Assembly (NCBI GenBank): GCA_028571455.1
Contig: JAPVVG010000168.1
Span: 1-34,334 of the forward strand
DNA length: 34,334 nucleotides
From: Desulfobacteraceae bacterium
Lineage (GTDB): Bacteria; Desulfobacterota; Desulfobacteria; Desulfobacterales; ETH-SRB1
Direction: 5' to 3'
A program made the translations under genes and the position numbers. Of this stretch, positions 4,367 to 33,704 are shown one piece after another (position 1 is the stretch's first letter; each line of letters opens with the position of its first letter). Below the pieces are notes generated by a model. That model had not been told where the DNA came from. It made no database searches and saw nothing but the letters and a program-made list of their open reading frames with translations.

Positions 4367-4457
4367 CGCGACTTATTTTTTTCTTGCATTTCTTAATGTT
4401 GTTATATATGCGATAGTTTTGCAAATAAGGATTTAAAATTAAGACTCACTACAGTTG

Positions 4458-4588
4458 GAGACCTTTGAATTTTGTCAGAAATAGTCTGAATCATCATTCC
4501 CGTGAAAACGGGAATCCAGTATTCTCAATTAGTTATAGATTCCCGCTTTCGCGGGAATGACAGGAAGGGGACGTTTTGCAAAGGTCTC
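4458..4588. mobile_element. MITE-like element A1 (TIR type A, core type 2), 131 bp, flanked by 8-bp direct repeat TACAGTTG
   Basis: GAGACCTTTG (4458-4467) and CAAAGGTCTC (4579-4588) are perfect TIRs. TACAGTTG occurs at 4450-4457 and again at 4589-4596. Core 2 is TCATTCCCG...CGCGGGAATGAC (4494-4561). Confidence 0.85.
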
Positions 4589-4625
4589 TACAGTTGATTA
4601 AACTGCAACATCAGGAGGTAAAGGC

Positions 4626-5165
4626 ATAGCAATATTCAGACATACAAACAGACCAGCCAGATCAAACAGAGTAAACATTAATAATAGGATAAGAGCAAAA
4701 GAGGTAAGGGTGATAGATCCTGACGGCAATCAGATCGGCATTATTCCAACTTATAAGGCGCTCGCAACGGCCGCTGATTTTGGTCTTGACCTGGTAGAAA
4801 TTTCTCCTAACGCAGACCCTCCTGTTTGCAAAATAATGGATTATGGGCGGTATAAGTATCAACTGACCAAGAAACTACAGGAAGCAAAAAAGAAACAAGC
4901 CTCATTCCAGGTAAAAGAGATAAAGATACGTCCAAAGACCGGAGATCATGATCTGCAGACCAAGATAGGTCATATAAAGAAATTTATCGGCAAAAAGGAT
5001 AAGGTCAAGGTAACCGTTGTTTTTAGAGGCCGGGAAATTACACTATCCCAGCGCGGCAGGGATTTACTGAAAAGAGTTGCTGAAGAAATCGACGATATAG
5101 CATTTGTGGAGCAGCATCCCAAATTTGAGGGACGCAGCATGGTGATGGTTCTATCGCCAAAATAA
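4626..5165 (+). CDS. infC: Translation initiation factor IF-3 (probable non-canonical start upstream of the track ORF)
   Basis: The track ORF starts at GTG 4710, but the same frame upstream encodes the conserved IF-3 N-terminus ...INNRIRAKEVRVIDPDGNQIG. AGGAGG at 4613-4618 precedes ATA at 4626. Confidence 0.85.
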   Translation: MAIFRHTNRPARSNRVNINNRIRAKEVRVIDPDGNQIGIIPTYKALATAADFGLDLVEISPNADPPVCKIMDYGRYKYQLTKKLQEAKKKQASFQVKEIKIRPKTGDHDLQTKIGHIKKFIGKKDKVKVTVVFRGREITLSQRGRDLLKRVAEEIDDIAFVEQHPKFEGRSMVMVLSPK

Positions 5166-5293: not shown

Positions 5294-5491
5294 ATGCCAA
5301 AGATCAAGACAAATAGAGCTGCTGCAAAACGTTTCAAAAAAACAGGCACAGGCAAATTCGTCTTTTCAAAATCGAATGCAAGTCATATACTAACTAAAAA
5401 GACCACCAAGCGTAAGAGGTCTTTGAGACAGGGCCAGATTATCGACAAATCCAACAAAAAGGAAATACGGCTGCTTCTTCCTAATACCTAA
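5294..5491 (+). CDS. rpmI: Large ribosomal subunit protein bL35
   Basis: [22 protein letters not shown]...[23 protein letters not shown] 5294 is preferred over the track start 5267, with AAGGAGAA upstream. Confidence 0.95.
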
Positions 5492-5676
5492 GATGAGCGA
5501 TTAGCTCTTAGTAATTAGCTGTTAGCTCTTATTATCTCAGGTGGTTACCAGCGATTAGATTTTCACCTCCGCCAACGGGCTCTGGCGGATTGACCTTTAG
5601 CAATATATTGAAATTATTTTGCTAACTGCTAAAAGCTAACTGCTAAAAGCTCAATTGAGGTAATAAGTTGAGTGGT
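5483..5676. repeat. Intergenic repeat G1 (TTATTACCT...GATTAGC type inverted repeat with CCGCCA/TGGCGG hairpin)
   Basis: Shares over 150 bp of near-identical sequence with 18507-18697 (GATGAGCGATTAGCTCTTAG...GGTGGTTACCAGCGATT...CCTCCGCCAACGGGCTCTGGCGGATTGACCTTTAGCAATATATTGAAATTATT). Ends are inverted (TAATACCT.../...AGGTAATAA). Confidence 0.8.
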
Positions 5677-12558: not shown

Positions 12559-12701
12559 ATTATTTCCTCCATTTTTTAGTTCAGCCACAAAGGCACTAAG
12601 ACACCAAAATTATAGTATAATTTGGGAATTTAGGGATTCGCCTCGCTTAATTGCGAATTTAGGGATTCAGGAATTAAGGAATTGAAGGTATCCTATTGAT
12701 T

Positions 12702-12757
12702 TCAATCCCTCAATCCCTCAATCCCTCAATCCCTCAATCCCTCAATCCCTCAATCCC
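12702..12757. repeat. Tandem 8-bp repeat (TCAATCCC)x7
   Basis: Seven exact uninterrupted copies, starting at 12702, 12710, 12718, 12726, 12734, 12742 and 12750. Confidence 0.95.
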
Positions 12758-14318
12758 TCAATTTTATATTATAAACATATTTTAACACAAAGCAAATAGC
12801 TGTTGCAACAACACAGGCTATTGCAAACATATCTCCGAAACGGGTATAAAAGGATGTCATACCTATTAAAGGCACAGAACGTGTAACCACCGCTTCCTTA
12901 AAAAGATCTGTTTTTTCGATAATTCTGCCAACAGGATCGATAAAGCCGCTTATTCCTGTATTTGCCGACCTGATAAGGGCCCGCCTGTTTTCTACAGCTC
13001 TGAATATTGCCATGGAAAAATGCTGATAAGGAGCGCTGGTTGTGCCAAACCACGCATCATTGGTAATATTTATGAGCAATGATGCATTATTTTTTGCCAT
13101 AGCTCTGGAAAGGTCTGGAAAAATAATCTCATAACAGATCTGCAAACCTAAACTATACTCCCCCCACTTAATGGTTTTGCCTTTAATACCAGGCTTGAAA
13201 TCACCAACCCCTTCCACCATTTTGCCGACAAATGGCAACCATTTATTAAAAGGGATGTATTCTCCGAATGGAACAAGATGCACCTTGTCATATTTGTCGC
13301 ATACCTTTCCATCCCGGCTGATCAGGTAAGCTGTATTGTAATGTTCAACAACCCCTTTTTTACGGACAAAGGAAGGGCTGCCAAACAGGAATGTTGTTCC
13401 TGCATCATTAATCCCTTTTTTAACCATGTTTGAGAGCCCGACATTATAAAGGAAATAAAAAGGGACGGCGGTTTCAGGCCAAACAACAATGTCGGGATTA
13501 TTTTTTTTTGATAAAAGTGAAAGCTTAATATATTTTTTTACAGTTAAGCGTTGAAATTCAGGATTCCATTTTACAGCCTGATCAATATTTCCCTGAACAA
13601 CTGCGGCTTTAATTGATGGAGAAGAGTAAACAAGTTTATCAATTGAATCTATTCGCCATTTGCCATAAGACAATACAAGGACAATAATCAGCGCAAAAAC
13701 AGATATTGATCCAAAAGCGACCCTTTTTGTTACGGCCTTCCTTTTCCAGTCTTTTCCCGCCAAATAAAGAACCGCCAGAAAAATTGTCGCATTTGATAGG
13801 ACAATTAAAAAGGATACGCCGTAAACTCCAAAGATGTCTGAAATCTGTATAAGAAGTAAATTGTTATATTGGGAATAACCGATAAGTTCCCATGGAAAAC
13901 CAAGAAAAAAAAGGCTGCGCATATATTCAAATGCGATCCATAAAACAGGAACTGCAAATATGCAAATCGCGGGCTTTGCACATAAATTTAATAGGGTTGC
14001 TGAAAATGCCGCCGGGTAAAGAGCAAGAAAGGCGGAGAGAAGAATGAGTATAAACGTGCCTAACAGCAGGGGAAGGTGGCCGTATGTATGCATTGTATAT
14101 ACAAGCCAGTACAAAAGTGTTAGATAATGAACAAGTCCTGCAATAAAGCCAAGGATAAAACCTCTTTTTGGAGAAAGGTTTCTTATTGCGATTAAGAGCG
14201 GAACAAGAGCGAACCAGGCAAACAAGCTAATACCGATTTTGGGAAAAGAACCGGTAAGGAGCAATCCGCTCAATATCGCCAGGCATAATTTTAGTTTGTT
14301 AATTTTTTGGGTTTGCAA
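12750..14318 (-). CDS. lnt: Apolipoprotein N-acyltransferase
   Basis: 522-aa membrane protein with carbon-nitrogen hydrolase domain: NPDIVVWPETAVPFYF, KVHLVPFGEYIPF, LQICYEIIFPDLSRAMAKNNASLLINITNDAWFG. Confidence 0.94.
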   Translation of the reverse strand: MQTQKINKLKLCLAILSGLLLTGSFPKIGISLFAWFALVPLLIAIRNLSPKRGFILGFIAGLVHYLTLLYWLVYTMHTYGHLPLLLGTFILILLSAFLALYPAAFSATLLNLCAKPAICIFAVPVLWIAFEYMRSLFFLGFPWELIGYSQYNNLLLIQISDIFGVYGVSFLIVLSNATIFLAVLYLAGKDWKRKAVTKRVAFGSISVFALIIVLVLSYGKWRIDSIDKLVYSSPSIKAAVVQGNIDQAVKWNPEFQRLTVKKYIKLSLLSKKNNPDIVVWPETAVPFYFLYNVGLSNMVKKGINDAGTTFLFGSPSFVRKKGVVEHYNTAYLISRDGKVCDKYDKVHLVPFGEYIPFNKWLPFVGKMVEGVGDFKPGIKGKTIKWGEYSLGLQICYEIIFPDLSRAMAKNNASLLINITNDAWFGTTSAPYQHFSMAIFRAVENRRALIRSANTGISGFIDPVGRIIEKTDLFKEAVVTRSVPLIGMTSFYTRFGDMFAIACVVATAICFVLKYVYNIKLRD

Positions 14319-18430: not shown

Positions 18431-18506
18431 AAAATTAAAATGATTGATTTTTTAACAGAATTAATTTAACTAAATTCTTTTTTGTTTGTTGTCAAGTTCA
18501 TTATTA

Positions 18507-18697
18507 CCTAAGATGAGCGATTAGCTCTTAGCAATTAGCGATTAGCTTTTATTATTTCGGGTGGTTACCAGCGATTCGATTTTCACCTCCGCCAACGGGC
18601 TCTGGCGGATTGACCTTTAGCAATATATTGAAATTATTGTGCTAATCCGCCAAAGGGCTCTGGCGGACTAACTGCTAAAAGCTCAATTAAGGTATTA
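18507..18697. repeat. Intergenic repeat G2 (same family as 5483-5676)
   Basis: Near-identical to G1 over most of its length, with a second copy of the AAAGGGCTCTGGCGGA module on its right side. Confidence 0.85.
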
Positions 18698-19693: not shown

Positions 19694-19896
19694 TGATGAA
19701 CTCGTAAAAAGTCGGATTTCTACCGTTTTGTCATTCCCGACCTGATCGGGGCACGTAGTGACACGAAGTGACACGAAGTGAAGCGTCAGCGCTAACCGTC
19801 AGCGCTAACCATTAGCGCTATCCAGTTCTTTCAAGCACTTATGGACTCCCGCCTTCGCGGGAGTGACTCGATTTTTGACTTTTTACGAGACCATCA
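19694..19896. mobile_element. TIR element B1 (TIR type B, core type 2), 203 bp, flanked by TATT
   Basis: TGATGAACTCGTAAAAAGTC (19694-19713) / GACTTTTTACGAGACCATCA (19877-19896). Core 2 runs from TCATTCCCG (19731) to TCGCGGGAGTGAC (19865). TATT flanks both sides. Confidence 0.82.
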
Positions 19897-21014: not shown

Positions 21015-21524
21015 ATGTCGACACTAACTGTGCTAACATATCCGGACAAATTTCTTAGTCAATCTGCAAAACCTGTAGAAAATATCGATGGCGCAATCCA
21101 GAATATGATTGAAGGCATGTCTTCCACCATGTATGAATCTCCTGGCGTGGGGCTGGCTGCCATACAGGTGGGATTTGACCAAAGCATTATCGTTTACGAC
21201 ATTTCGCCAAGGGATGAAAAGCGGTCTTTACATGTTCTTATAAATCCAAAAGTTATCTCCAGTGAAGGAACTACTATTTCCGAAAGCGAAGGATGTCTGA
21301 GCGTTCCTGATTTTAGGGCTGATGTAAAACGCTCAGCCTCTATCCTGGTTGAAGGGTTTGACAGGAAAGAAAAACCATTGAGAATAGAGGCCCATGGACA
21401 CCTTGCTGTTGTCTTGCAGCATGAAATTGATCATTTAAACGGCATATTATTTATAGACCGGATAAGCAGTTTAAAAAGAGGTCTTTATAAAAGACGTATC
21501 AAGAAGATGTTAAAACAAAAGTGA
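21015..21524 (+). CDS. def: Peptide deformylase
   Basis: GVGLAAIQVG, EGCLSVP and QHEIDHLNGILFIDR motifs. Confidence 0.97.
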   Translation: MSTLTVLTYPDKFLSQSAKPVENIDGAIQNMIEGMSSTMYESPGVGLAAIQVGFDQSIIVYDISPRDEKRSLHVLINPKVISSEGTTISESEGCLSVPDFRADVKRSASILVEGFDRKEKPLRIEAHGHLAVVLQHEIDHLNGILFIDRISSLKRGLYKRRIKKMLKQK

Positions 21525-21681
21525 GCGATTAGCCATTAGCTTTTAGCTATTAGTCAAACTATATCAAGATGTTATTAAATAATAATCCGCCAGAGCCCAT
21601 TGGCGGAGGTGATTAATAAATAATTATACGAATGCATATTTCATAAGAGCCAACGGCTAATTGCTAACAGCTAATCGCTTA
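21522..21681. repeat. Intergenic repeat G3 (TGAGCGATTAGC...GCTAATCGCTTA inverted repeat)
   Basis: TGAGCGATTAGCCATTAGC at the left; GCTAATTGCTAACAGCTAATCGCTTA at the right. The internal CCGCCAGAGCCCATTGGCGG hairpin is the inverse orientation of the G1/G2 hairpin. Confidence 0.78.
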
Positions 21682-21698
21682 ACATAGGTAAGGCAAAA

Positions 21699-26610: not shown

Positions 26611-26773
26611 TATACCTCGGAAGGTCACAAATTGTGCTTTTTTCGGTGAGCAATGAGCATCAAAAGCAAGGCGCGAAGGCGCGGAATAGCAGGCTATTGC
26701 AAGTCTGAGCAACGCTGCTATTGTGATGTTCATGGCCAGCGAAAAATCGTTATTTGTGGCCTTCCGAGGTATA
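26611..26773. mobile_element. TIR element E, 163 bp
   Basis: TATACCTCGGAAGGTCACAAAT (26611-26632) versus the reverse complement of ATTTGTGGCCTTCCGAGGTATA (26752-26773), one mismatch in 22. Internal AATAGCAGGCTATT hairpin. Confidence 0.78.
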
Positions 26774-27798: not shown

Positions 27799-27943
27799 TA
27801 GTGTCCATCCATAAATGAGGATTTTGGTTCAAGATCAAGGCATGTGAAAAAAATAACCACAGGCATATGTTTAATATTCCGAGGATTATTTTTTGAACAT
27901 AACGCAGAGATTGGGCAAAAAGACCATTTATGGATGGACACTA
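27799..27943. mobile_element. TIR element C (TIR type C, core type 1), 145 bp
   Basis: Perfect 19-bp TIRs TAGTGTCCATCCATAAATG (27799-27817) / CATTTATGGATGGACACTA (27925-27943). Core 1 at 27827-27915. Confidence 0.85.
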
Positions 27944-29524: not shown

Positions 29525-29541
29525 AATATTGTTAACTAACC

Positions 29542-29683
29542 GAGACCTTTGAAAAATATTCAATTTTGTTCAAGGCCAAGGAAGGCGAAAATTTTAACCA
29601 CAGGAATACATTGAGTATTTCAAGGATTAAAATTTGAGCCTGACGCCGGAATTGGGCAAAAGGGGACGTTTTTCAAAGGTCTC
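29542..29683. mobile_element. TIR element A2 (TIR type A, core type 1), 142 bp
   Basis: GAGACCTTTG (29542-29551) / CAAAGGTCTC (29674-29683). The right arm GGGGACGTTTTTCAAAGGTCTC matches A1. Core 1 at 29568-29656. Confidence 0.85.
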
Positions 29684-29686
29684 TAA

Positions 29687-31063
29687 CTATAAACGATAAC
29701 CTTTCTCGTTAAACAATCTCAGGCAGGCATCGACCACTTTGGAATCATAAGAGGATCCGCGGTTCTTTGAAATTTCATTTAACGCAAGATCAATTCCAAG
29801 GGCTGCCCGGTAAGGCCGGTGAGAAGCCATAGCCTCAACCACATCAGCCACTGCCAGTATTCTTGCTTCGATCAAAATATTATCACCTGAAATACCATCT
29901 GGATATCCGGAACCATCCATCCTTTCGTGATGCTGTAGTACAATTTGTGCAATCGGCCATGGGAAATCCACCGTCTTCAATATATTATAACCCACCCGGG
30001 GATGTTCTTTAATTATCCCAAATTCGTTTGCACCTATTTTGCCCGGCTTACTGAGAATTTCTCCGGGTACCGATATTTTACCGACGTCATGGATCACTCC
30101 TGCCAGTCGGATTCCTTGAATCTGATCTTCTGAAACTCCCATTTCTGTGGCTATGGCACGAGCAAGATTGCTGACACGACGCTGGTGACCGGCGGTATAA
30201 GGATCTCTGGTTTCGACTGTCAATGCCATGGCTTCAATGGTTCCCCCTAATGCTTTTCTCAATTCCTTCAGGGTTTTTTCAAGTTGTTTACGGTTTGACA
30301 CCAGCTCACTGATATCTCGAATTATGCCCTGGTATCCTATTACACTTTTATCTCTTGCCAGCCGAACCGTGGACGTGATCAAACAATCTATTTCAGTACC
30401 GTCTTTCTTACGCAGCTTTACCTCAAACTCCCTGACAGATCCTTTTTGTGCTATCTCCTCCTGCCACCTTCCATATTCATCAGGGTTTACAAAAACGTCC
30501 TTTGTATTAATCCCTAACATCTCTTCTCTGGAATAACCGAAGAGATCCAACGTCGACCGGTTAAAATTAATCAACCCACCTTCTTTATCGTTAAGATAGA
30601 TCGCATCTTTGGAGTCTTCAAAGAGGGTACGATATTTCTCTTCGCTCTTCCTTAATTGGATTACGGTATTCCTGCGTTCCTGCCGATTTTTGGCCTCGCG
30701 TAATTCCCGATCGATAGCAGAGCTCAGTCGCGCAAGATTGCTTTTCATGATGTAATCGTGTACACCGGCCTTCATGGCCACAACGGCGGTTTCATCTGCA
30801 ATAGTGCCCGATACGATGATGAACGGCAGATCGAGCCTTTTATCCTTATAAAGCTCCAGGGCGGAAAATGCATTAAAACCGGGCATAGAATTATCGCACA
30901 GGATTACATCCCATGTCTGTTTATCCAGGGCTTTGCTCATAGCTTCAGCCGTATCCACCTGCTCGTAAGTGGGGCTATAGCCTCCTTTCTTCAACTTCCT
31001 CAGAAGCAGCAAGCCATCGTCTTCAGAATCATCAACAATCAATACACGGATTGGTTTATCCAT
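29687..31063 (-). CDS. Response regulator with receiver, PAS and HD-GYP domains (putative c-di-GMP phosphodiesterase)
   Basis: Receiver (RVLIVDDSEDDGLLLL, ILCDNSMPGFNA), PAS (EEKYRTLFEDSKDAIYLND) and HD-GYP (HDVGKISVPGEILSKPG, HHERMDGSGYPDGISG). Confidence 0.93.
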   Translation of the reverse strand: MDKPIRVLIVDDSEDDGLLLLRKLKKGGYSPTYEQVDTAEAMSKALDKQTWDVILCDNSMPGFNAFSALELYKDKRLDLPFIIVSGTIADETAVVAMKAGVHDYIMKSNLARLSSAIDRELREAKNRQERRNTVIQLRKSEEKYRTLFEDSKDAIYLNDKEGGLINFNRSTLDLFGYSREEMLGINTKDVFVNPDEYGRWQEEIAQKGSVREFEVKLRKKDGTEIDCLITSTVRLARDKSVIGYQGIIRDISELVSNRKQLEKTLKELRKALGGTIEAMALTVETRDPYTAGHQRRVSNLARAIATEMGVSEDQIQGIRLAGVIHDVGKISVPGEILSKPGKIGANEFGIIKEHPRVGYNILKTVDFPWPIAQIVLQHHERMDGSGYPDGISGDNILIEARILAVADVVEAMASHRPYRAALGIDLALNEISKNRGSSYDSKVVDACLRLFNEKGYRL

Positions 31064-33511: not shown

Positions 33512-33551
33512 AACTTTTTAAAAAATAGTTAGTTAATGAGAAGTTACCATT

Positions 33552-33704
33552 GATGAACTCGTAAAAAGTCAAAATTGAGACGGCAAAGTAAAAAGTTCAA
33601 GTTCAAGGCGTTGCGAATTTCCTGGAATGAGGCGTACTGATGTACGCCGCAGTGAACACGAAATGAAGTGCAAGGCAGAAATTGGACTTTTTACGAAGCC
33701 ATCA
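33552..33704. mobile_element. TIR element B2 (TIR type B, core type 1), 153 bp, flanked by CCAT
   Basis: TGATGAACTCGTAAAAAGTC (33552-33571) / GACTTTTTACGAAGCCATCA (33685-33704). CCAT at 33548-33551 and 33705-33708. Core 1 at 33595-33685. Confidence 0.85.

Follow-up and report, generated by a model that had tools for sequence, protein, structure and literature searches.

Element A1, which lies in the leader of infC in a Desulfobacteraceae bacterium, is a non-autonomous MITE: it is short, it has TIRs, it contains no transposase gene, its copies are dispersed and its orthologous site is found empty. Apart from one peculiarity, a target duplication of 8 bp, the insertion is an ordinary one. Coordinates are given in Table 1, where the window is the whole stretch of 34,334 nucleotides that we have analyzed.

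Table 1. Features of the infC leader and of elements A1 and A2 (positions in the window)
Feature	Position	Strand	Basis
Conserved block upstream of infC, promoter-like by eye	4372..4413	+	Window's genome and 8 family relatives, alignment
Left copy of 8-bp target duplication TACAGTTG	4450..4457	+	Single copy in G002/G003 empty sites
MITE A1, 131 bp, no ORF	4458..4588	+	
A1 left TIR GAGACCTTTG	4458..4467	+	
A1 right TIR CAAAGGTCTC	4579..4588	+	
Right copy of 8-bp target duplication TACAGTTG	4589..4596	+	Single copy in G002/G003 empty sites
infC (translation initiation factor IF-3), apparent ATA start after AGGAGGT	4626..5165	+	
A2 left duplication TAACC	29537..29541	+	
MITE A2, 142 bp, TIRs as A1, body different	29542..29683	+	
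A2 right duplication TAACT, 4/5 match	29684..29688	+	

The first-pass annotation had described an exact 8-bp repeat at both ends of A1, and the sequence confirms it. Both copies of TACAGTTG are exact and each lies directly against a perfect 10-bp TIR; when both strands of the whole window are searched, these are the only two occurrences. A1 contains no ORF of at least 80 amino acids. Its body has two ATTCCCG/CGGGAAT palindromes, which are also present without TIRs at many other places in the genome. The dRS3-like palindromes of Neisseria have the form ATTCCCN8GGGAAT, and the likeness of the ATTCCCG...CGGGAAT of the A1 body to them is a resemblance only.

The DNA flanking A1 was searched in 58 genomes and was matched in six relatives of the same genus. 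Two of these, G002 and G003, have no element in the alignment upstream of infC and contain TACAGTTG once; their empty site reads CTACAGTTGATT, in one copy. The element is also absent from G006, where the site is a one-base variant, CTGCAGTTGATT, and from G005, G001 and G004, where it is more diverged. Empty sites with one TACAGTTG, which the annotation had proposed to look for upstream of infC, are thus present in G002 and G003 and show that A1 was truly inserted, with 8 bp of its target duplicated. Judging from these alignments, the insertion is specific to the lineage of the window among the genomes compared. The usual duplication of the family, 5 bp, might suggest that the two copies of TACAGTTG belong to the repeat itself or resemble each other by chance, and are no target duplication. 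This is hardly credible: the empty sites within the genus, with their single copy, contradict it, TACAGTTG does not flank the other copies of the element, and only 0.0036 exact 8-bp flanking matches would be expected from base composition anywhere among 114 elements.

The annotation had also taken the 8-bp duplication as the signature of these elements, and here our results differ. With one mismatch at most, GAGACCTTTGNAAAA matches the own genome at 110 TIR sites, 57 of them forward and 53 reverse, while a control with the reversed pattern gave 7 matches. In this genome 34 complete elements could be paired, 51–221 bp long. An exact duplication of 5 bp flanks 17 of them, against a mean of 0.8 and a maximum of 5 in 500 shuffles. 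The same is found in 42 of the 80 elements from relatives (shuffles: mean 0.9, maximum 6), so that 59 of 114 complete copies have an exact 5-bp duplication, against about 1.7 expected from shuffles. A duplication of 8 bp is found in A1 alone (1/34 in the own genome, 0/80 in relatives); the other 113 copies have a 5-bp duplication or no clear one. Elements with A1-type bodies also duplicate 5 bp: TATGT (L134), CTATT (L145) and AATCT (C102). The family, with the TIR GAGACCTTTG[CA]AAAA, is a high-copy MITE family with no ORF and with several unrelated palindromic bodies. Its rule is a 5-bp duplication, and the 8 bp of A1 is a one-off. A family with a fixed 8-bp duplication, for example of IS6, IS66 or ISL3 type, is rejected because 8 bp appears in only 1/114 copies. 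The lack of 8-bp duplications in other copies, which the annotation had named as evidence against itself, overturns the signature that it proposed for the family. The insertion of A1 with 8 bp duplicated, on the other hand, stands on the empty sites. One insertion is thus documented precisely, and the family signature is corrected from 8 to 5 bp.

A similar correction applies to A2, whose flanks had been read as a degenerate 8-bp repeat. This was partly wrong: they are the 5-bp duplication of the family with one mismatch. At least four unrelated palindromic bodies are found inside one kind of TIR: the A2 type, the ATTCCCG/CGGGAAT type of A1, a third with CATTGCGAG...CTCGCAATGAC and a fourth with CATTTCGA. 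Conversely, other TIRs, TAGTGTCCATCCATAAATG, enclose a body similar to that of A2 (74% over 98 bp) at 27799-27943 of the window. Since ends are shared by unrelated bodies and the A2-like body has other ends, TIR ends and bodies appear to have reassorted.

The transposase that moved A1 was probably an IS5-family enzyme of the NF033581 type, as suggested by elements in other genomes. In the own genome no IS5_4-type transposase was found above the search thresholds, in an assembly of 267 contigs which may miss repeats. In the related genome G013, a left TIR GAGAGCTTTGCATAAC lies upstream of an IS5-family transposase gene (L171), which scores above the NCBIfam cut-off for NF033581; the matching locus L189 belongs to Desulfobacteraceae bacterium isolate S3_36. 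In two homologues of this gene (L185 and L188), CAAAGGTCTC follows the stop codon at a distance of about 200 bp, and another one (L186) has the end CAAAGCTCTC. When the genomes of 84,980 species were scanned, 16 loci were recovered, most of them in Desulfobacterota, with Desulfosarcina among these. Many of the 16 loci have the left end GAGACCTTTGCA[TC]AAC, and GAGACCTTTGCA ends are present in L341, L190, L195, L198, L199, L201 and L202. L341, from a related genome, is a complete IS of 1436 bp whose reading frame runs through 402 codons without interruption; its transposase has 73% identity to that of L171 over 353 amino acids. The ends of this IS, GAGACCTTTGCATAA ... ATATTCAAACCTCTC, match the MITE TIRs, and an exact 5-bp duplication, AGTGT, is found on each side. 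A decayed copy in Desulfosarcina widdelii (L199) has ACAAC in both flanks. An exact 5-bp duplication is thus present in two of the nine autonomous copies in which both ends are seen, and the other seven lack it.

These Desulfobacterota IS (L341, L190, L199) share with the A1 family the TIR GAGACCTTTGCA[TC]AAC. Their duplication, seen in the two copies mentioned, has the 5 bp of the MITE family as a whole but not the 8 bp of A1 itself. Unlike A1, they are about 1.4 kb long and have a transposase. Internal TIR bases are slightly different, GCATAAC/GCACAAC in the IS and GCAAAAC/GAAAAA in the MITEs, so a transposase closer to the MITE ends may exist. Other candidates were discarded: most PF01609 transposases in the genomes of the family lack the TIR, an IS5-type group in G187 has different ends, AGACCTCCTGCAAAA, and the TIR of the G085 elements differs too. 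A MITE family that is abundant in this group of Desulfobacterota is now linked to a probable IS5-type mobiliser.

A1 joins a known group, the IS5-type MITEs with a TIR as in ISNme1 and BrickBuilt. The TIRs of two IS5-family elements are GAGACCTTTGCAAAA / TTTTGCAAAGGTCTC in ISNme1 and GAGACCATTGCA/TTCAAAGGTCTC in ISPg1 (PMC4596501). These are autonomous insertion sequences while A1 is gene-less, the likeness being in the TIR. BrickBuilt is a MITE of Porphyromonas gingivalis with TIRs most similar to those of the IS5-family ISPg1 and ISPg9 (PMC4596501). Like A1, it has TIRs, GAGACCTTTGCA/TGCAAAGGTCTC, which are shared or nearly so with full-length IS5-family elements, it has no transposase gene and a non-coding body, and its target duplication is known from comparison of empty and filled sites. 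Unlike the A1 family, BrickBuilt bodies consist of 23-nt tandem repeats, and its reported duplications vary (CT, GAAA, AAAAA; PMC4596501), whereas 5 bp is clearly the rule in the 114 copies of the A1 family. Our literature searches of openly available papers returned no description of MITEs in Desulfobacterales.

We are fairly confident of the following account as a whole. A1 would have been mobilised in trans by an IS5-family DDE transposase recognising the TIR GAGACCTTTGNAAAA, whose staggered cut of the target would usually give 5-bp duplications. In this strain, strand transfer into the infC leader would have occurred at positions 8 bp apart, and repair would have left TACAGTTG on both sides. 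The insertion, the single TACAGTTG of the empty sites, the 5-bp rule and the related-genome IS with such TIRs and 5 bp are observed; for the 8 bp themselves we infer an irregular stagger as the simplest account. A normal 5-bp duplication (AGTTG or TACAG) next to three bases which are the same by chance, for instance if foreign DNA of 3 bp was brought in or added at one end, would agree with every other clear duplication in the family, and three extra bases should match by chance in about 1/32 of cases, counting either side. We consider this very unlikely, as the addition of 3 bp would be unusual and the bases would also have to match by chance, while a single event is enough for the 8-bp reading, which agrees exactly with the empty site. 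Alternatively, A1 might have been moved by another transposase, one that cuts with an 8-bp stagger, in line with the proposal of the BrickBuilt authors that multiple transposases explain varying duplication lengths in one MITE family (PMC4596501). This is unlikely too: the nearest relatives of A1, with the same body and TIR, duplicate 5 bp, and our search for a second transposase with the TIR of this family found none.

The infC leader is lengthened by A1, which lies between the conserved block and the AGGAGGT ribosome-binding site. On the strand of infC, no promoter was recovered by a sigma-70 scan, in the strongly conserved block either. Eight related genomes share the apparent ATA start (4626-4628) after AGGAGGT; GTG 4710 is the start that ORF callers would choose. 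A1 RNA folds strongly (-54.9 kcal/mol, z -7.7), as expected from its nested inverted repeats. No intrinsic terminator was found in A1, so a role as a simple terminator before infC is not supported. Nor is a regulatory role of A1 supported by any evidence.

G007, which belongs to another genus, has an A2-type element in the interval upstream of infC, flanked by a duplication of 5 bp that reads AGTAT on the reverse strand. It is an independent insertion of the MITE family of A1 in the infC leader. A doubtful conjecture is that an IS5-type transposase of flexible stagger, with occasional 8-bp joins, inserts repeatedly in this leader (A1 and the element of G007), where the hairpins may tune infC. 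With and without A1, the leader of infC, an essential gene, forms a clean filled/empty pair that could be used to measure effects on expression.

Other repeats are also found in the window. The element at 27799-27943 is a second type of MITE, with 28-bp TIRs; CTAA is present in both flanks, which would fit a 4-bp duplication with the ends moved outward by one base. A third type, with TIR TGATGAACTCGTAAAAAGTC, has two copies (19694-19896 and 33551-33704), both with a 4-bp flanking duplication, TATT and CCAT. A longer repeat has three copies, one of them inverted (5482-5665, 18502-18697 and 21519-21693), and contains TCCGCCAA(C/A)GGGCTCTGGCGGA palindromes. A MITE-like element at 26611-26773 has a 32-bp inverted repeat pair, TATACCTCGGAAGGTCACAAAT, with no obvious flanking duplication. 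Finally, a tandem array of the 8-mer TCAATCCC occupies 12694-12770, at the 3' end of a minus-strand ORF (12750-14318).
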